IMG/VR virus record: IMGVR_UViG_3300046817_000550
Span: 1 to 23,774 of that record
DNA length: 23,774 nt
Direction: 5' to 3' (one strand)
From: a virus
Shown here piece by piece: positions 7,869 through 20,094 of the stretch. Below the pieces are notes generated by a model. The model saw only the letters and a list, made by a program, of their open reading frames with translations, searched no databases and was not told the origin of the DNA. The stretch's first letter is position 1. Every line of letters starts with the position of its first letter. A program made the position numbers and the translations under genes.

Positions 7869-8657
7869 TTGCTCAATATCATATCGTTAGGTGCAGGCGT
7901 GCAAAGCACCACATTATTGCTCATGGCAGCACAGGGCAAAATCGGCCCCATGCCCGACGCCGCAATCTTTGCCGATACGCAATGGGAACCTAAAGCGGTC
8001 TATCGCCATCTCGCATGGCTCAAATCACAAGCCATCCCATTCCCGATTTATCAGGTAAGCGCGGGCAATCTGCGCGCCGACATTCTATCGCGCTCAAACA
8101 CAAGCGGTGGGCGCTTCGCCGCCGTGCCTTGGCATATGGTCATGCCCAACGGTTCAACAGCCATTGGCCGCAGACAATGCACCCAAGAATACAAACTAAA
8201 ACCAATCCGGCAAAAAGTTCGCGCCCTGCTAGGCGATAAAACACCCAAGGGTGGCGCACAAATATGGATTGGTATTAGCTTAGACGAAGCCATGCGTATG
8301 AAGCCATCTAAAATCGGCTACATGGTCAATAGATGGCCACTGATTGAATTAAGAATGACCCGCCGCGATTGCCTGCAATGGCTAACAGAGCAGAATTACC
8401 CGCAACCCCCAAAATCATCCTGCATCGGTTGTCCTTATCATTCCAATAGCCAATGGCGCGACATTAAACGAGTTCCAGACGAATGGCAGGATGCCCTAAC
8501 AATAGACGCGGCCATTCGAGATCAGCCAAAAATGAAAGGACAACAGTTCGCCCACCATTCCAAAATACCATTGGCCGATGTCGATTTATCAACGGCTGAG
8601 GAACGCGGTCAATTAAACCTATTCAACAACGACTGTGAAGGAATGTGCGGAGTTTGA
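7869..8657 (+). CDS. PP-loop ATPase / PAPS-reductase-like protein (262 aa), TTG start
   Basis: An N-type ATP pyrophosphatase of the PAPS reductase superfamily. Residues 6-14 are the PP-loop SLGAGVQST. Further features are FADTQWEP at 35-41, RRQCTQEYK at 101-109, CIGCPYH at 185-191 and a C-terminal CEGMC at 256-260. True PAPS reductases reduce adenylyl-sulphate, but this phage branch has extra cysteine pairs (C185/C188, C256/C260, plus C104) that may hold a metal cluster. Relatives in bacteria include tRNA and DNA sulphur-modifying enzymes, so nucleic-acid modification is a reasonable but unproven guess. The start is TTG at 7869, supported by GGAGG eight bases upstream and by the conserved PP-loop beginning at residue 6. 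Confidence 0.88.
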   Translation: MLNIISLGAGVQSTTLLLMAAQGKIGPMPDAAIFADTQWEPKAVYRHLAWLKSQAIPFPIYQVSAGNLRADILSRSNTSGGRFAAVPWHMVMPNGSTAIGRRQCTQEYKLKPIRQKVRALLGDKTPKGGAQIWIGISLDEAMRMKPSKIGYMVNRWPLIELRMTRRDCLQWLTEQNYPQPPKSSCIGCPYHSNSQWRDIKRVPDEWQDALTIDAAIRDQPKMKGQQFAHHSKIPLADVDLSTAEERGQLNLFNNDCEGMCGV

Positions 8658-8724: not shown

Positions 8725-8967
8725 ATGGCACAATTCAGCAAACGGCACTATCAGGCTATCGCGCAAGTGATGCAGGATAGCCGCATAGAACAAGAGCAAT
8801 TCGGCTTGCACGATTCAAAGCAGCAATCAGCCGTCAATGACGCGATGGAAGTAGTTTGCGACGAACTGGCCGATATGTTCTTTGACGATAATCCGCTCTT
8901 TAAGCGTGATTTGTTTATGCAAGCCTGCCAGCCTGGCGCCAACGTGCGCGCCAGAAAGGTAGCGTAG
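8725..8967 (+). CDS. Conserved small phage protein (80 aa)
   Basis: Starts MAQFSKRHYQAIAQVMQDSR and has an acidic helical middle (VNDAMEVVCDELADMFFDDNP) and a LFKRDLFMQACQPG end. The 'SKRHY.AIA..' opening with a '..NPLF.RD.F..AC' ending is a familiar pattern in phage early genes of unknown function. ATG 8725 is set by GCGAGGACACA directly upstream; in-frame codons back to 8635 overlap the PP-loop gene and lack an SD. Confidence 0.75.
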   Translation: MAQFSKRHYQAIAQVMQDSRIEQEQFGLHDSKQQSAVNDAMEVVCDELADMFFDDNPLFKRDLFMQACQPGANVRARKVA

Positions 8968-8969
8968 TC

Positions 8970-9401
8970 ATGACAAACCTATACCGCAGCGAAAGCAGCA
9001 ACCCAAAATGGAATGCGCAACGCAATCTAAACGGGCGCACCCATTACGTTGACGACGACACGCTACGCTTCCACAAATCGCGCATTTTGTCGGCACGCCA
9101 CACCGATAATGGCCTACTGTTCGCCATTGTCGAAAGCATGGCGCTCGATATGCACAACACAAAGCGCGGCTACCGATACGTCATCTTCGACCTGTTCGGC
9201 AGCACAATCGACCGCCCCAAATTAGAGGACAGTTATAGGACCTCTCGGCAGGCAACGGCCGCAATGTGGGCAGCATTAAACGCCATTGACGCCAAGGCTA
9301 TCACATTGGCAGCCATTGACCAGCAAGCCAAAAACCATATCCGCGAAATCGCGGACCTGACCAAGCTAGTGCAGTCGATTGATACCGCAAAGGCAGCCTA
9401 G
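8970..9401 (+). CDS. Conserved hypothetical phage protein (143 aa)
   Basis: Reads MTNLYRSESSNPKWNAQRNL, then THYVDDDTLRFHKSRIL and a YRYVIFDLFG strand, followed by a helical C-terminal half (ATAAMWAALNAIDAK). The 'NP.WNAQRNL.GRTHYVD..TLR.HKSR' opening is one I associate with phages of alphaproteobacteria, but there is no assigned function. It begins two bases after the previous stop. No membrane or signal sequence. Confidence 0.75.
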   Translation: MTNLYRSESSNPKWNAQRNLNGRTHYVDDDTLRFHKSRILSARHTDNGLLFAIVESMALDMHNTKRGYRYVIFDLFGSTIDRPKLEDSYRTSRQATAAMWAALNAIDAKAITLAAIDQQAKNHIREIADLTKLVQSIDTAKAA

Positions 9402-9403
9402 CC

Positions 9404-9625
9404 ATGAAAACCCCACAACTCCCGCCACTCGCTGGCATGACGCCGCTAGGGCTCACCAATGCCCTATCCCGCGACCAAGCCGCCCTAGCCCAACGCAAAG
9501 CTAACTCGCCGCTAATGGCACCTAAGCCGCAGATACCGTGCGACCATGGACTATTTAGCGACGAGCGGGATCAACTCGACTTGGCGGATATGCCAATGTT
9601 TCACGATGCAATCGAGGAGGAATAG
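9404..9625 (+). CDS. Hypothetical protein (73 aa)
   Basis: Pro-rich N-terminus (KTPQLPPLAGMTPLGLTNAL) with an acidic C-terminus (FSDERDQLDLADMPMFHDAIEEE). Largely unstructured in appearance. It starts two bases after the previous stop, and its final GAGGAGGAATAG supplies the SD for the next gene. Function not recognised. Confidence 0.65.
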   Translation: MKTPQLPPLAGMTPLGLTNALSRDQAALAQRKANSPLMAPKPQIPCDHGLFSDERDQLDLADMPMFHDAIEEE

Positions 9626-9628
9626 ACA

Positions 9629-9844
9629 ATGGCACAACATCTCACAAACCTAATCAATGAAGCACTAATGGACGCCCACAAGCGCAATGATTGCCATTGG
9701 ACGCTTCGCTACACGGACAAAGCAGTGCTTAATCACATGGATTTGCTGCTAGTTCGCGGCAATCATCCAATGGCTATGCGACCAGGAACGCAAGAAAACC
9801 GTTTCTGCGAACTGGCGCGGGCTGGCGTTCAACTATCAGACTAA
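9629..9844 (+). CDS. Hypothetical protein (71 aa)
   Basis: Begins MAQHLTNLINEALMDAHKRN and ends ENRFCELARAGVQLSD, probably a small alpha/beta protein. A strong GGAGG nine bases upstream sets the start. Nothing in it points to a function. Confidence 0.65.
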   Translation: MAQHLTNLINEALMDAHKRNDCHWTLRYTDKAVLNHMDLLLVRGNHPMAMRPGTQENRFCELARAGVQLSD

Positions 9845-14555: not shown

Positions 14556-15046
14556 AAATCAACCCGTTCGAGCTAAAGCAACAAATCGCAAACCTGCTGC
14601 TGGTGTTTCCAGAACTGGCCGACGACGAGGACGCGCGGCTCATGTCCATGGAAAGCGAGACTGATCTAAAGGAAGTGCTGACGGTCGTGCTGGACGACAT
14701 CATGGAAGCCAAAGCCATGCAGGTCGCCATTGACGAGCGGATCAAAGACCTGAAAACACGCGGCGACAGGTTTTATCAGCGCGAGCAGGGCTGGCGCAAA
14801 CTAGCGCACGATCTCATGAACGCCGCCAGCCTGCGCAAGATGCAGTTGCCGACAGCTACGCTATCTGTGCGTAACGGGCAGCCATCGGTGCAGATCGTCG
14901 ATCAAGCATTCTTGCCGGAGAACTTCTGGCGAGTGAAACGCGAGCCGAACATTTCGGCTATCAAGGACGCCCTCAAGGGCGGGGCAGAAGTACCCGGCGC
15001 CATTCTCAACAACGCGCCGGACACGTTGGCAATCTTAACCAAATGA
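14552..15046 (+). CDS. Siphovirus Gp157-family protein (164 aa)
   Basis: A long acidic helical N-terminal half (ELKQQIANLLLVFPELADDE, then TDLKEVLTVVLDDIMEAKAM) leads to IDERIKDLKTRGDRFYQREQ. After that come MQLPTATLSVRNGQPSV and a proline-containing FWRVKREPNISAIKDALKGG block. This order is that of the Gp157 family, named from Streptococcus phages and linked there to phage resistance when expressed in the host. Its molecular role is unsettled. Start overlaps the 28-aa gene. The next gene is the protein that often accompanies it. Confidence 0.9.
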   Translation: MKINPFELKQQIANLLLVFPELADDEDARLMSMESETDLKEVLTVVLDDIMEAKAMQVAIDERIKDLKTRGDRFYQREQGWRKLAHDLMNAASLRKMQLPTATLSVRNGQPSVQIVDQAFLPENFWRVKREPNISAIKDALKGGAEVPGAILNNAPDTLAILTK

Positions 15047-15055
15047 GGCAGACAA

Positions 15056-15490
15056 ATGAAAATCAGCGAAGCCTATCCATCAAAATTCCTGCGCAGCGGT
15101 GACGTGGGAGATAATCAACTCCGCCTGCGCATATCGCACGTCGATCTGGAGGACGTGGCGCAGGGCGAGGACCCCAAGCCGGTGCTGTATTTCCTCGGCA
15201 AGACTAAGGGTATGGTGATGAACCGCACCAACAGCAAAGTCATCGCGGAAGCCTACGGCGACGATACCGACACATGGCAGGGGCGTGAGATCATCCTGTA
15301 CTCAACACAGGTGCCGTTTCAGGGCGGCCTAGTCGATGCCCTGCGCGTGCGCGTGCCAAAGGCGGCACCAAAGAAGCCCGACAAGATCGAGAGTGGGCCA
15401 CCGCCAAAGAAGCCTGCGCCAAAGCATTCCGATGAGGCTGCTGTAGAGGAAACCGAAAATCCGGCGCCGGCAGACACAGACGAGTTCTAG
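15056..15490 (+). CDS. Conserved partner of Gp157, OB-like phage protein (144 aa)
   Basis: Residues 1-100 (SEAYPSKFLRSGDVGDNQLR, VLYFLGKTKGMVMNRTNSKV, AYGDDTDTWQGREIILYSTQ) follow a pattern found beside Gp157 genes in many phages. The beta-strand-rich profile suggests an OB-like fold. The last 40 residues are low-complexity Pro/Lys/Glu, ending in an acidic tail (ETENPAPADTDEF) like those on single-stranded-DNA-binding proteins. I propose a DNA-binding role, which is inference from the tail and neighbours. GAGG is seven bases upstream of ATG 15056. Confidence 0.7.
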   Translation: MKISEAYPSKFLRSGDVGDNQLRLRISHVDLEDVAQGEDPKPVLYFLGKTKGMVMNRTNSKVIAEAYGDDTDTWQGREIILYSTQVPFQGGLVDALRVRVPKAAPKKPDKIESGPPPKKPAPKHSDEAAVEETENPAPADTDEF

Positions 15491-15902: not shown

Positions 15903-16091
15903 CTATTTGCGATCTTGTGTGTAAATGGCTTTCATGGAAGTATCCCTAGAAGCCCGGCTAATCACATCTCGCATACCACACCATTTGCACCATAGCATCG
16001 TGTCGCCATCTGGATAGATGGGTGGCGCGTAATGCCAATGGTAGCGGTGGGCAATCCGCATGATGACCCGGTATAGAAAACCTCGCAGCAT
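15903..16091 (-). CDS. Hypothetical protein with Cys pair (62 aa)
   Basis: A basic amphipathic start (MLRGFLYRVIMRIAHRYHWH), then MLWCKWCGM, which is a CxxC pair possibly forming half a zinc site, then a Ser/Arg-rich end. GGAG lies five bases before ATG 16091. Not recognised. Confidence 0.62.
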   Translation of the reverse strand: MLRGFLYRVIMRIAHRYHWHYAPPIYPDGDTMLWCKWCGMRDVISRASRDTSMKAIYTQDRK

Positions 16092-16099
16092 GGTCGCTC

Positions 16100-16261
16100 C
16101 TAATCATTGTCGGTTGATTTGCGAACAGCCTCAGCGGCACGGAGAGCATTACGAGCGACCTGATAGCGGTCATCCAAATCCAACCCTTCGACGCCATACA
16201 TATTTTTTATCGTGACCTTAATGGATTCTGCCGCCGCCTCGATTTCTGCCGTTGAGGCCAT
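16100..16261 (-). CDS. Small acidic helical protein (53 aa)
   Basis: Reads MASTAEIEAAAESIKVTIKN, then MYGVEGLDLDDRYQVARNAL and ends RAAEAVRKSTDND. Mostly helical with Ala/Glu repeats. GAGGAG lies five bases before ATG 16261, and its TAG is eight bases before the next ATG. Not recognised. Confidence 0.62.
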   Translation of the reverse strand: MASTAEIEAAAESIKVTIKNMYGVEGLDLDDRYQVARNALRAAEAVRKSTDND

Positions 16262-16270
16262 GGACACTCC

Positions 16271-16456
16271 TCAATTATAAAAACCGTGGCTGTAACATAC
16301 CGCTTTCGCGGTCGCTGTCGGTTCCTTAAACGCAAGCGCCTCGTGACAAGTTGCCTCAATCTTTTTCAGCGTGACGTAATATCCGATTGCTCCGTAGCCA
16401 AGTCCACCAAGGCCGGCCACGAAAAGAGCCACATACGCACCAGTTAGCCATTTCAT
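16271..16456 (-). CDS. Small membrane or secreted protein (61 aa)
   Basis: An N-terminal hydrophobic segment (WLTGAYVALFVAGLGGLGYG) follows a single Lys and could be a signal anchor. The remainder (YVTLKKIEATCHEALAFKEP...AVCYSHGFYN) contains two cysteines that could pair outside the cytoplasm. AAAGGAG lies about six bases before ATG 16456. Function unknown. Confidence 0.68.
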   Translation of the reverse strand: MKWLTGAYVALFVAGLGGLGYGAIGYYVTLKKIEATCHEALAFKEPTATAKAVCYSHGFYN

Positions 16457-16474
16457 TGGTTTGCTCCTTTATAT

Positions 16475-16675
16475 CTAAGCTTCCCAAACAGACATATCTT
16501 CGGATGCGGCATCGGCTGGCGAATAGTCGTCGCTCCAAAAACACATCCAATCTCGACGGTTGTCCCAAACATAGGAGTGAGCTTCTTCCTTGCTCATGCC
16601 GCTGCGTGATACGAAATTGGCTTCCAACTCTAAGAGCCACGCATCGAACGAAAGTTTTGTTTCTGCGGCGACCAT
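16475..16675 (-). CDS. Conserved small phage protein (66 aa)
   Basis: Starts MVAAETKLSFDAWLLELEAN and ends in an acidic stretch with WCFWSDDYSP-like and PADAASEDMSVWEA residues. The 'F..W...E......G....EA..YV..N.D.W...' and 'P.DAA.ED' pattern recurs in phage hypothetical proteins. AGGAGG nine bases upstream overlaps the TAG of the recombinase gene. Codons up to 16738 are inside that gene and excluded. Confidence 0.68.
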   Translation of the reverse strand: MVAAETKLSFDAWLLELEANFVSRSGMSKEEAHSYVWDNRRDWMCFWSDDYSPADAASEDMSVWEA

Positions 16676-16686
16676 TGGTCGGCCTC

Positions 16687-17316
16687 CTATTGTTTTGGCT
16701 TTTTGCGTATGAATTGGCCTTTGCCAGTTTGCTGCCAATGGCCGTAGACAGACGCAGTGGATATTTTCATGCGCTTGGCTATCTTCGGCCCGCTCATTCT
16801 AGGCTTACCATTGCGACCATTAAGGAAGTCACCAACGAGCTTAATCCGTTCTGGCGTCATATACACGGCTCGCCCCCAATGGTAGCCGTTGCCGCTACGC
16901 GCCTTAAGGGCCGCGATACCCGCTGCCGTCCTTTGAGCGATGATCTGTCTTTCAAATTCCGCAACGAGGCCCAATACGCCCAAAACAAGCTTTCCCGAGA
17001 CAGTGCCAAAATCAAAGCTTTCCTGTAGAGAGCGAAAGTACGCACCCTTGGCATAGATTTGGTCAAGCCGGGAGTAAAGTTGCCGCATAGACCGCGCCAG
17101 CCGGTCCAGACGCCACACGACGAGAGTATCACCTTCCCGTAGGTCTTTGATCGCCAGATCGAGCGCGGGGCGCTTGGCGCTGGCCCCTGACACCTTTTCC
17201 ACATGCAAATTGTCAGGTAGGACGCCTGCCGCCAGTAAGGCGTCGGTTTGGAGGTCCAAAGACTGATCCTCTGTTGAAACCCGCGCATATCCCACCAAAA
17301 ACCCATTTGCTGCCAT
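16687..17316 (-). CDS. Serine recombinase, resolvase/invertase type (209 aa)
   Basis: The catalytic domain is complete: YARVSTEDQSLDLQ at 10-23 with nucleophile S14, VVWRLDRLARS at 66-76 with R69, R72 and R75, and EFERQIIAQRT at 120-130. A C-terminal helix-turn-helix follows (SGPKIAKRMKISTASVYGHW, about 175-195). The size is that of resolvases and invertases, not of the large phage serine integrases. It can cut and rejoin DNA at paired short sites; whether it inverts, resolves or integrates is not shown. No tyrosine integrase is in the window. ATG 17316 follows GGCGGGG; an in-frame GTG at 17337 is weaker. Confidence 0.92.
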   Translation of the reverse strand: MAANGFLVGYARVSTEDQSLDLQTDALLAAGVLPDNLHVEKVSGASAKRPALDLAIKDLREGDTLVVWRLDRLARSMRQLYSRLDQIYAKGAYFRSLQESFDFGTVSGKLVLGVLGLVAEFERQIIAQRTAAGIAALKARSGNGYHWGRAVYMTPERIKLVGDFLNGRNGKPRMSGPKIAKRMKISTASVYGHWQQTGKGQFIRKKPKQ

Positions 17317-17337: not shown

Positions 17338-17399
17338 TATCAGATTGTCAGCTAGACATACGCCTTGACAATGGCAAAGTCAAGGTTTACATAGGGACC
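17338..17399. promoter_or_regulatory. Divergent promoter region with nested inverted repeats
   Basis: TTGACA at 17365-17370, a 17-base spacer and TACATA at 17388-17393 form a rightward promoter candidate whose start would fall near the ATG at 17400. The -35 box lies inside a perfect inverted repeat, CCTTGAC-N9-GTCAAGG at 17363-17385. A second pair, ATTGTCA and TGACAAT, spans 17344-17372. These may be an operator or a recombination site for the adjacent recombinase. Confidence 0.5.
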
Positions 17400-17621
17400 A
17401 TGAACACCACGACCACCAACCTTTACGCCAGCCGCTCAAGCGCCCAACGGGCCGCTCGCGCCGCTTGCCGCAAGGCTTTGGGGCCGGTGTTTCAGGCTTA
17501 CGAAGGACCGGACTACGGCATTCATCCGGTCAGCCCGACAACTGACGAAATGATCGCGGGACAATATCGAGATCGCTATAAAATCGAACTGCGCGGTCCC
17601 GCCGCCGACCACAAGGAATAG
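17400..17621 (+). CDS. Hypothetical protein (73 aa), first of small-gene train
   Basis: An N-terminal Arg/Ala-rich helix (SRSSAQRAARAACRKALGPV) is followed by QAYEGPDYGIHPVSPTTDEM and a charged end. ATG 17400 has a weak GGG six bases upstream; the promoter candidate would make the message nearly leaderless. Its stop sits in the CACAAGGAATAG cassette that serves the next gene. Not recognised. Confidence 0.65.
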   Translation: MNTTTTNLYASRSSAQRAARAACRKALGPVFQAYEGPDYGIHPVSPTTDEMIAGQYRDRYKIELRGPAADHKE

Positions 17622-17626
17622 GCCCC

Positions 17627-17788
17627 ATGCCGCAGACCTTCGCTGATCTGAAACACGAGAACCGGCATTTGGATGAACAAATCCAGACGTTGCTCCGCGA
17701 GCGGCGTGAAATCGAGCGAGCACTGGACTGCCGTAAACTTTTCCTGTTCGAGCACGTCGATGGGACGTTCTCGGTTAACGATAAATAG
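17627..17788 (+). CDS. Hypothetical coiled-coil-like protein (53 aa)
   Basis: Charged heptad-like helix, with FADLKHENRHLDEQIQTLLR followed by ERREIERALDCRK, then a short FLFEHVDGTFSVNDK end. ATG 17627 follows AAGGA by eight bases. The helical repeat suggests oligomerisation. Not recognised. Confidence 0.6.
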   Translation: MPQTFADLKHENRHLDEQIQTLLRERREIERALDCRKLFLFEHVDGTFSVNDK

Positions 17789-17794
17789 GCCGCC

Positions 17795-17932
17795 ATGCCG
17801 GTAATGTATTTTGGCCCAATACGAGTGAAAAGATTTGTTGGGGCGTCAACGACGTGCTGGCAATGGGTTGACGTTTATCAATGCTTTGATCGAACTGGAA
17901 ACCTAGTCGGAACAATCGAGTTTCCCCGTTGA
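17795..17932 (+). CDS. Hypothetical protein (45 aa)
   Basis: Reads MPVMYFGPIRVKRFVGASTT, then CWQWVDVYQCFDRTGNLVGT and ends IEFPR. Beta-rich with two cysteines and several aromatics. The start follows the AATAGGCCGCC cassette, which has lost its AAGGA core here, so initiation may rely on coupling. Below the length most gene finders accept; supported mainly by position. Confidence 0.5.
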   Translation: MPVMYFGPIRVKRFVGASTTCWQWVDVYQCFDRTGNLVGTIEFPR

Positions 17933-17945
17933 AGGAATAGGCCCG

Positions 17946-18182
17946 ATGGCAAGACGTTGGCCCAAATCACTAACAGGTCCGGTCATTGTTGAGCGTCGAG
18001 ACAATGAAACTGGGTTGATCGCCTATGAGGTTATGGACATGGGATCGACTTACCATTGCGTATGCGTCGTGTCGGAGGATCAAAATGACAACGCCAAGCA
18101 GGAAGCAGAGTTTGTTGCGATGGCGATCAATAGTGCTCTTGGCGCGCTCAAGGTAATTGATGCCGCTGAATTGAAGGAATAG
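17946..18182 (+). CDS. Hypothetical protein (78 aa)
   Basis: Two beta segments (GPVIVERRDNETGLIAYEVM and STYHCVCVVSEDQND) precede a helical end (EAEFVAMAINSALGALKVID), ending ELKE. ATG 17946 follows GAAGGAATAGGCCCG. Not recognised. The C-terminal LKE is encoded by the next gene's SD cassette. Confidence 0.65.
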   Translation: MARRWPKSLTGPVIVERRDNETGLIAYEVMDMGSTYHCVCVVSEDQNDNAKQEAEFVAMAINSALGALKVIDAAELKE

Positions 18183-18188
18183 GCCGCT

Positions 18189-18374
18189 ATGGCAAAACGA
18201 ACTGACGACTATTGGCATTTCTACTTAACAGATGAACAGGTAGATACGTTGCGTCTGATTTTGACGGCGACATCTAAGGACATGAACAGCTATAATAAGA
18301 ACTGGTTGCCGTCCCGCATCGCTGCCGCTCGCGTTGAAAGCCTGATTGATGAAATCAACTCAGTGACAGGTTGA
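18189..18374 (+). CDS. Hypothetical helical protein (61 aa)
   Basis: Starts MAKRTDDYWHFYLTDEQVDT and continues as helices (LRLILTATSKDMNSYNKNWL, ARVESLIDEINSVTG). ATG 18189 follows TTGAAGGAATAGGCCGCT, the most typical copy of the cassette. Not recognised. Confidence 0.63.
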   Translation: MAKRTDDYWHFYLTDEQVDTLRLILTATSKDMNSYNKNWLPSRIAAARVESLIDEINSVTG

Positions 18375-18388
18375 AGGAATACCCCCCG

Positions 18389-18577
18389 ATGGCAGCACAT
18401 TTTAGTGAGATCAAAGAACGCGGTATAGTTTATGCTTGGGATGGCGAAGTTGTCGGATTGCGGGCCGAGATCGAGCGGCTGCGGGCGGCAATAGAGACAA
18501 TCGGTCGAATCGTAGAGGGCTTCGATTACAATCACGGTGCCGAAATAAAACGCATCATTCACAGCTTGAAGGATTAG
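18389..18577 (+). CDS. Hypothetical coiled-coil-like protein (62 aa)
   Basis: A predicted coiled coil, with DGEVVGLRAEIERLRAAIET in its middle, and a HSLKD end. ATG 18389 follows GAAGGAATACCCCCCG. An in-frame TTG at 18371 overlaps the previous gene's stop (TTGA) and would add six residues encoded by the cassette. Not recognised. Confidence 0.6.
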   Translation: MAAHFSEIKERGIVYAWDGEVVGLRAEIERLRAAIETIGRIVEGFDYNHGAEIKRIIHSLKD

Positions 18578-18584
18578 CCAGCCA

Positions 18585-18809
18585 ATGAGCGTCTGTAGCC
18601 GCCTTGAATGTCAAACCTCTGTAGGATGCGCCCATCGCGGACCGCACGCCCAAATGTGCTACTTCCCTGCCGATCTTTCTAGCTATACGGACGAGCAGAT
18701 CGCCGCCGAACATCACTGGCGCATGATGAAAAAACTAGGTGATCCTCGTATCTGCGTTTCCGGCCCGAAGCAGATTGCGTGGCCTGAATATCTCGCTTTG
18801 AAGGATTAG
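18585..18809 (+). CDS. Cys-rich hypothetical protein (74 aa)
   Basis: Five cysteines and a histidine in the first 25 residues (CSRLECQTSVGCAHRG and PHAQMCYF), which may bind zinc. This is followed by TDEQIAAEHHWRMMKKLGDP and an LKD end. ATG 18585 follows GAAGGATTAGCCAGCCA. Not recognised. Confidence 0.63.
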   Translation: MSVCSRLECQTSVGCAHRGPHAQMCYFPADLSSYTDEQIAAEHHWRMMKKLGDPRICVSGPKQIAWPEYLALKD

Positions 18810-18816
18810 GACGCCA

Positions 18817-19023
18817 GTGAACCAACTTGAAACACTGAAACTCATAGATAAGTTCAGGGCGGAAGCTAAGGCGGCTATTGTCGCCGAGCGCGAACGGTGC
18901 GCTAAGATTTGTGAAACTAGCGCCATTTATTATGCAGGCGGTTCCCCGATGGGTTTAGTACCTAACAAGTTGGGTGATCCAGTTGGTCATCTGTTCGCAG
19001 CGGCTATCAGGAACGTGGAATAG
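18817..19023 (+). CDS. Conserved small phage protein (68 aa), GTG start
   Basis: The stretch AKAAIVAERERCAKICETSA is a recurrent helix in small phage proteins near late early-region genes. The middle is Gly-rich, ending GHLFAAAIRNVE. GTG at 18817 is used because AGGACGCCA lies directly upstream within the same cassette. No other start is available. Function unknown. Confidence 0.68.
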   Translation: MNQLETLKLIDKFRAEAKAAIVAERERCAKICETSAIYYAGGSPMGLVPNKLGDPVGHLFAAAIRNVE

Positions 19024-19038
19024 TCTGTCCTATCCATA

Positions 19039-19707
19039 ATGAAAAAAATCTTTTTCGCCATTCCATCAAAATCCGGCCAGCTTGAATGGCCTACGTTTGT
19101 AGCTCTCATGCGCAGCCATGCCGCCTGCCGTGAGCAGGGATGGACTACCAAACTAGCTGCCGTATTGCAGGAGTCGCTGATCCCCAATGCCAGGAATGTG
19201 CTGGTGGCGCAGTTCATGGAGACTGACTGCACCGATATGTTTTGGGTGGATGACGATCAGGGCTGGACACCGGAGGGCTTTGTCAAACTGCTCAATTACG
19301 AGGAGCCGTTTGTCTGCGCGCCATACCGGCACAAGTCGGATGTCGAGACATATTCTTTTGAGTTGGCTCCTCCATGGCCCGTTAGTAGCGGTTTGCTGTC
19401 GGTGAAATATGCCGGCCTTGGCATTGCCAAGATATCGCGAATCGTGATCGAGCAGATGATCGTGGCTTATCCGCAGACCTACCGGCCGAGCAAATATCCC
19501 AAGTCGGTATGGCCGCTGTTCGAGATCAAATGGGAAAACGGCGAAATGAACGGCGAGGATGTATGCTTCTGCGAGAAATGGCGGGCGATCGGCGGTGTGG
19601 TATGGGTCGATCCAGACCAGGTTACCGAACACGTCGGCAAGAAATCCTACATTGGCCATTACAGTGAGTTCAAAAAACAGTCGCCTGCCAGGCCGGAAGG
19701 CGACTGA
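19039..19707 (+). CDS. Glycosyltransferase-like protein (222 aa)
   Basis: KKIFFAIPSKSGQLEW opens a GT-A-like fold. NARNVLVAQFMETDC at 50-64 leads to MFWVDDDQGWTPEGF at 67-81, where DDD at 71-73 stands where family-2-type enzymes bind the metal and sugar nucleotide. The C-terminal GEDVCFCEKWRAIGG block and HVGKKSYIGH resemble the acceptor-binding end of phage glycosyltransferases (Anp1/GT2-like). It would transfer a sugar to DNA, capsid or host surface; which is unknown. No good SD precedes ATG 19039. Its final 30 bases form one arm of the minus-strand terminator. Confidence 0.75.
   Translation: MKKIFFAIPSKSGQLEWPTFVALMRSHAACREQGWTTKLAAVLQESLIPNARNVLVAQFMETDCTDMFWVDDDQGWTPEGFVKLLNYEEPFVCAPYRHKSDVETYSFELAPPWPVSSGLLSVKYAGLGIAKISRIVIEQMIVAYPQTYRPSKYPKSVWPLFEIKWENGEMNGEDVCFCEKWRAIGGVVWVDPDQVTEHVGKKSYIGHYSEFKKQSPARPEGD
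19671..19706 (-). terminator. Intrinsic terminator of the leftward lysis operon
   Basis: On the minus strand CAGTCGCCT, an 11-base loop and AGGCGACTG form a perfect 9-bp stem, followed directly by TTTTTTG. It lies 33 bases after the last leftward gene. The stem overlaps the end of the rightward glycosyltransferase gene. Confidence 0.85.
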
Positions 19708-19738
19708 GGTGAGACGGCGGGAGATTGCAGAGTGCCGT

Positions 19739-19846
19739 CTAGCAGATGTAGCAGCAGTTCCCGTGGCCGCTGAACATTAGTCCAACAGCAACAAGTAGGG
19801 CGAGTGCTGCGAAGTAGAGCAGCACCCACTGGTTTGATGTCATCAT
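19739..19846 (-). CDS. 35-aa membrane peptide with Cys-rich tail
   Basis: MMTSNQWVLLYFAALALLVA continues VGLMFSGHGNCCYIC. One hydrophobic helix and a C-terminal CCYIC. Start overlaps the previous stop (ATGATGA), giving two possible ATGs. Last gene of the leftward operon, before the terminator. Function unknown. Confidence 0.6.
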   Translation of the reverse strand: MMTSNQWVLLYFAALALLVAVGLMFSGHGNCCYIC

Positions 19847-20094
19847 CTATGTGTTGGTGGCAGCAGGGATATTCCACCCATGCCGACTACGCAGCTTAAC
19901 AGTGCAAAGATGATGTAAATCACAAAGATACAGACGATCGCCCATAGAATGATGTTGATGGCCTGGGCAAGTATCGGAATGCCTACCTGTGCCATGACCC
20001 ACGGCACAAGCAGGCGAATAATAGCGACGATTGCCCCGACTATCACACACCAGACTAGGAACTGCTCAAGCCATTGGAGTGTAAAGCATCCCAT
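19843..20094 (-). CDS. Hydrophobic membrane protein, two helices or more (83 aa)
   Basis: Two hydrophobic stretches, about residues 12-32 (LVWCVIVGAIVAIIRLLV) and 43-72 (LAQAINIILWAIVCIFVIYI...LLSCVV). AGGAGGATAT precedes ATG 20094. Two helices, no charge between them, and position in a lysis operon allow a second holin or antiholin, but a hydrophobic accessory of unknown role is equally possible. Confidence 0.65.
   Translation of the reverse strand: MGCFTLQWLEQFLVWCVIVGAIVAIIRLLVPWVMAQVGIPILAQAINIILWAIVCIFVIYIIFALLSCVVGMGGISLLPPTHR

Follow-up and report, generated by a model that had tools for sequence, protein, structure and literature searches.

The DNA analyzed here is a 23.8-kb virus fragment from IMG/VR (record IMGVR_UViG_3300046817_000550, 23,774 nucleotides; hereafter the window). 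It contains a train of tiny genes joined by short elements, each of which holds the stop codon of the upstream gene together with the Shine-Dalgarno sequence (SD) of the downstream one. Judged by comparison with other contigs, this train forms one of the two arms of an array that occurs in a group of tailed phages. In it, facing -35-like boxes beside a serine-recombinase gene make up a pivot that heads two divergent chains of tiny genes, each with its own kind of joint. An earlier, sequence-only reading of the window had described the train as a module that allows cargo genes to be swapped in frame with their ribosome site; by the same comparison, it missed the other half of the structure, namely the second arm with a different joint. 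We favor, with a probability of roughly 0.6, a two-arm array of accessory genes whose arm-specific joints would serve both coupled translation and the short-homology exchange of gene units.

Joints of the two arms

The rightward, divergent arm (R arm; 17400-19023, + strand) comprises eight tiny genes, at 17400-17621, 17627-17788, 17795-17932, 17946-18182, 18189-18374, 18389-18577, 18585-18809 and 18817-19023. All seven junctions that had been reported between them at 17.6-18.8 kb, carrying variants of TTGAAGGAATAGGCCGC, are found in their places. At junction 1 (17610-17626, CACAAGGAATAGGCCCC) the upstream protein ends in HKE and the next gene starts with ATG 17627. Junction 2 (17777-17794, AACGATAAATAGGCCGC or AACGATAAATAGGCCGCC) is the weakest and retains only AATAGGCCGC, between a terminal NDK and ATG 17795. 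The upstream protein ends in LKE at junction 4 (18171-18188, TTGAAGGAATAGGCCGC or TTGAAGGAATAGGCCGCT; ATG 18189) and in LKD at junctions 6 (18566-18584, TTGAAGGATTAGCCAGC or TTGAAGGATTAGCCAGCCA; ATG 18585) and 7 (18798-18816, TTGAAGGATTAGGACGC or TTGAAGGATTAGGACGCCA; GTG 18817). At junctions 3 (17929-17945, TTGAAGGAATAGGCCCG; ATG 17946) and 5 (18371-18388, TTGAAGGAATACCCCCC or TTGAAGGAATACCCCCCG; ATG 18389) the upstream open reading frame (ORF) stops at the TGA (17930-17932 and 18372-18374) of tTGAaggaa, inside TTGAAGGA, which lies in a different frame from the others. In junction 5 the unused TAG has mutated to TAC.

Since the reading frame differs at two junctions, what is conserved in the element is the nucleic acid rather than an encoded protein tail. 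The statement that it encodes LKE, LKD or HKE at the upstream C-terminus in most junctions holds for four of the seven (a fifth has NDK), but not for those at 17929 and 18371. The notion of an in-frame swap has to be dropped: two different frames run through the cassette, which functions as DNA or RNA. A 20-nt stretch at junction 3 is identical in the array G003, where it is read in the other frame as LKE and stop. Such frame-independent use extends to the R-arm junctions of relatives with TAG, where this codon is the stop in use in 28/38 and not in use in 10/38.

Matches to the 17-mer with at most three mismatches occur at five junctions, against 0.05 expected in shuffled sequence, and five were reached in 0/100 shuffles. 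At the positions outside SD and TAG, the mean pairwise identity of the seven junctions is 0.571, whereas the maximum was 0.434 among 20,000 simulated sets in which the SD (AAGGA) and TAG were held fixed. The similarity of the junctions exceeds what SD plus stop would give, and since the observed value lies above every simulated set, these two alone are excluded as the whole explanation. The proteins of the train are unrelated to one another, as had been claimed. None of the eight small ORFs lies above a Pfam curated cut-off, there are only a few marginal PHROG matches, and a tblastn search of 50,697 phage records returned no relatives. The last small protein (18817-19023) has an AERERCAKI segment in common with small proteins of other arrays (G024, G030, L240; L235 12298-13370).

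About ten further contigs have the same junctions, there too on genes that are unrelated. The exact 17-mer matched three of 2.9 million viral contigs, one of which (L004/G003) carries a complete series of tiny genes linked by these joints. Wider patterns added L156, L160=L171, L163, L165, L169, L170 and L173, each with a train whose joints are AATAGGCC or ATAGAGGCC.

The serine-recombinase gene (16687-17316, - strand; start at ATG 17316 or GTG 17337) is the first gene of the opposite arm (L arm). Its product has a Resolvase N-terminal domain (PF00239, E 1e-37) with an intact YARVSTEDQ..LDRLARS motif, and the catalytic R8, S10, D67, R68 and R71 are invariant in three relatives. It is less than 60% identical to anything in annotated phages or plasmids (37-46% being the best among the matches listed), and its gene has 70.7% DNA identity to the one heading the L169 train. 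A search with this recombinase gave 80 loci. In its closest clade the recombinase leads the L arm and the R arm runs the opposite way; it is divergent from the array and heads it in the window, in G024 (which has the same layout as the window), in G027 and in the contigs fetched through the resolvase. In the arrays G003 and G030 another pivot gene without a Resolvase match takes its place (L084 3800-4390; L235 14222-14779); it encodes 185-196 amino acids and has no family assigned.

The pivot (17363-17393) contains the inverted repeat CCTTGAC..GTCAAGG (17363-17385), that is, two facing -35-like boxes. On the + strand, pointing into the train, TTGACA (17365-17370) is followed after 17 nt by TACATA (17388-17393), a combination missed by a consensus promoter scan because TACATA fails the scan filter. 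Facing TTGAC..GTCAA boxes are found in 12/19 pivots and only once in 203 kb elsewhere; in the pivots of more distant resolvases they occur in 0/59. Their conservation suggests that the boxes act as promoters. TACATA ends 6 nt before ATG 17400 (17388-17402; similarly in L238), and the first R-arm gene may be leaderless.

In the window, the L arm continues on the - strand with a gene at 16475-16675, whose junction is AACAATAGGAGGCCGACCA (16676-16694), and with genes at 16271-16456, 16100-16261 and 15903-16091 (junctions ATAAAGGAGCAAACCA, AATTGAGGAGTGTCC and ATTAGGAGCGACC; 15903-16474). Across the arrays, the joints are arm-specific elements of 12-17 bp at gaps of about 4-17 nt. The consensus of the R joint is GGAATAGGCCCG, followed by ATG, and that of the L joint is AAATAGGAGCG. 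Joints were counted per arm in contigs fetched only via the recombinase, so that the counts are free of motif selection. The GGCC type was found in 21/37 R joints, 4/78 L joints and 4/109 other genes (Fisher R versus L 1.5e-9). Conversely, GGAG joints account for 61/78 in L, 6/37 in R and 24/109 in other genes (Fisher R versus L 2.4e-10). In 60 other, more distant recombinase loci the R-type joint was present in 7/40.

The two joints also differ in their predicted pairing with the anti-SD (median -6.9 for L, -5.1 for R and -5.0 for other genes). For the GGCCCG part of the R joint, no pairing partner is obvious at the 3' end of the 16S, and R joints are degenerate outside TAGGCC. Members of gene families found in both arms have whichever joint is typical of the arm in which they reside. 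Genes of the WQPIETAPKDG family have ATAGGAGCGGCC in the L arm of G027, but AATAGGCCC, AATAGCCCCG and AATAGGCCGG in the R arms of L239, L251 and L252; the same is true of the RLRFDA family.

Proposed exchange of cargo at the joints

When related phages are compared, neither the genes nor their order are the same. L238 and the window have in common 713 bp of pivot and recombinase at 72% identity, plus a homologous flanking gene. The R arm of L238, however, has two genes that differ from the cargo of the window. The first ends in HKD and stop followed by AAGGATTAGGCC, resembling junction 1 of the window; downstream of the second there is a single GAATGTAGAGGCCGC joint, after which no gene was called. 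In L246 and L248 the pivots are 88% identical, and on either side the similarity ends precisely at the SD (AAACGGAGC, TAGGGAGC).

Duplicated segments end in the same elements. L241 contains a 514-bp duplication (99.8% identical) that reaches from the AGGAG of one gene to TGAGGAGC of the next, hence SD to SD, and different genes come after the two copies. In G030 a duplication begins at TTTAGGAGCGACC, and in G028 one of 90 bp ends at GGAATAGGCCC. Matching between G026 and G028 begins at TTGAAGGAATAGGCCC, and the boundary between L255 and L257 lies at TAGGAGC. The shared segments end at varied places within the SD. Of the proposed swap module with its ribosome site, the core gains support even though the in-frame part does not: relatives keep the pivot, differ in cargo, and have segments that end in the SD. 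Neither of the two outcomes that the earlier reading had named as speaking against it, conserved gene content and order or junction similarity no greater than SD plus stop would give, was found. Recombination at the joints is what these sequence boundaries suggest.

Two further features of the cargo were observed. In L235 (G030) a methylase-like gene is duplicated, and its second copy (18317-18536 and 19728-20000, equal to 14774-15258) is interrupted by 1.19 kb of inserted DNA with several small genes; the two parts of this copy both include the same 8 bp of the intact one, resembling a target-site duplication. Some R-arm genes contain variable GYGNG/YGYG tandem repeats (L239 4918-5373; L253 4258-4875; L241 5637-5936), whose number varies between phages.

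Explanations and comparable systems

In the favored reading, termination and initiation would be coupled at the element, so that a ribosome finishing one gene could begin the following one. As all joints in one arm carry the same short sequence, units could be exchanged at them: SD-to-SD gene units would be gained, lost, copied and swapped through general annealing-type phage recombination, and whatever gene enters an arm would end up with the joint of that arm. For exchange among phage sequences that have diverged, a preponderant role of phage-encoded recombinases has been reported (PMC3945230).

Several points weigh against this reading. The L consensus is not significantly enriched in the window, whose own L-arm joints are weak, and the rule that the joint follows the arm draws on two to four gene families only. 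Boundaries of high identity fall at a start site in 7/10 cases in arrays versus 26/187 in other regions of related contigs (p = 1.7e-4), a test with ten usable array boundaries only. The background is itself enriched, with 14% of boundaries at start sites that make up about 4% of the sequence; as starts are denser in arrays (an estimated 11% or so of the sequence versus 4%), the excess over background is roughly twofold. Gene boundaries would be favored by selection anyway, and cassette-driven exchange beyond that is suggestive, not proven. Moreover, the contigs are all metagenomic fragments, and outside the window the genes were called with a simple home-made caller.

The main rival is arm-specific control of translation, because a single host-optimal start signal would not differ between the arms. 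Here, the joints would be conserved because of a factor able to tell GGAG from GGCC, for example a RegB-type ribonuclease with specificity for SDs, a repressor of translation or a small RNA, and exchange would be a side effect of selection at gene boundaries. We regard this as possible but doubtful. The presence of two joints in one phage, split by arm, speaks for it, as do the lack of an obvious 16S partner for GGCCCG and the stronger predicted pairing in L than in R. There is also a precedent in phage T4, where RegB cuts the GGAG of early SDs but spares the majority of middle messages and every late one (PMC3014915). Only the idea of an SD code is in common with T4, although the split of the two joints hints at such a code. 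No RegB-like or RNA-binding gene was identified here, R joints are degenerate outside TAGGCC, and by itself this account leaves the SD-to-SD duplications unexplained.

A gene-capture array with two divergent cargo arms, in which dedicated recombination, maybe guided by the pivot recombinase, would insert, copy and delete SD-to-SD gene units and the kind of joint would set when or whether an arm is translated, seems unlikely to us. Nothing in the data shows the recombinase acting on the joints. It is more doubtful still that this enzyme moves cargo between joints by site-specific recombination, as in an integron. A recombinase gene with an intact catalytic motif does head the array, divergent from it, and the boundaries do fall in joints. 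Yet these joints are short, asymmetric and unlike between the arms, they lack inverted repeats, the varied end points of shared segments within the SD do not fit, and the pivot gene of G003 and G030 has no Resolvase match. The resemblance to integrons lies in a divergent recombinase gene at the head of an array of promoterless small genes. In contrast to integrons, the enzyme is a serine recombinase (PF00239 Resolvase) instead of the tyrosine integrase IntI, arrays extend on both sides, and there is no sign of action on the joints. In the train, no attC-like inverted repeats (at least 8 bp within 60 bp) were found. Membership among the integrons was rejected on the grounds of the Resolvase and of the missing attC-like repeats.

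An ordinary operon, in which a good host start site meets a stop codon and some recent local duplications have occurred, is already disfavored and is given the least credence. Overlap of SD and stop is seen in many phage operons, and AATAGG is mildly common at other junctions of these contigs too; against this stand the similarity outside SD and stop, which is above the null, the different joints in the two arms of one genome, and the rarity of the GGCC joint in other genes of the same genomes.

The closest known case are the Start-Associated Sequences (SAS/ESAS) described in Cluster K mycobacteriophages (Pope et al. 2011, PMC3203893), short asymmetric repeats located a few bases upstream of the starts of unrelated genes. 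They are confined to the non-structural part in one orientation, sometimes with the upstream stop, and they contain an SD but are conserved beyond it (PMC3203893). The authors propose a role in translation and possible recombination targets (PMC3203893). Here too, the repeats directly precede the starts of unrelated non-structural genes in one orientation, and the L joint has ATAGGAGC in common with the 13-bp SAS consensus GGGATAGGAGCCC. This consensus has no match with up to two mismatches in the window. SAS have one consensus and lie mostly in intergenic gaps of more than 50 bp, whereas the gaps here are far shorter and the joints, of two arm-specific kinds, lie on either side of a conserved divergent pivot that includes a serine recombinase. 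On the basis of consensus, spacing and layout, the array is comparable to the SAS but not a member. Literature searches, incomplete in coverage, returned no description of a pivoted two-joint array, and to our knowledge no array in which each of two arms has a joint type of its own has been described.

It is an old question whether phage mosaicism results from exchange at short sequences conserved on gene boundaries or from random joining, with selection acting afterwards. According to the boundary-sequence or linker hypothesis, short conserved sequences at gene boundaries act as homologous exchange sites for modules (reviewed in PMC3029335), but at most mosaic boundaries such sequences cannot be found (PMC3029335). 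Here, almost all joints of a cargo-gene arm have such a sequence and it doubles as a start signal, which makes the question directly testable. Joints and pivot can also be used to locate functionally uncharacterized cargo genes in environmental phages.

Relatives and surroundings of the window

The large terminase subunit of the window has 48-50% identity to that of the Rhizobium phages RHph_N3_2 and RHph_N2 and their relatives. Its gene is adjoined by those for a head-tail adaptor and the small terminase; the early region after this block has a YdaS/Cro-like regulator and a Gam/Gp157-like gene. In RHph_N3_2, examined as a feature table only, there is no pair of small-gene arms headed by a serine recombinase. 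Relatives of the structural module of the window showed no cassette in the parts examined, and those of the 144-amino-acid gene at 15056-15490 are widespread, mostly without the joints.

The region used as a DNA query against annotated phages gave no matches, and neither did a first search for relatives with the 222-amino-acid gene (19039-19707), which comes after the train without a cassette before it. An Rfam scan was empty. For the host, the recombinase was searched in about 1,000 alphaproteobacterial genomes and none was found; a scan of bacterial genomes for GAAGGANTAGGCCGCCATG gave 32 taxonomically scattered matches and no prophage cluster.

Two other small rightward operons were observed in the window. 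In the one at 8725-9844, the SDs precede an overlapping TAG stop (AAAGGTAGCGTAGTC, AAAGGCAGCCTAGCC, GAGGAGGAATAGACA) and the GGCC joint is absent. The other lies beside the terminase genes and includes a PAPS-reductase-like gene (phrog_424; 7869-8657).
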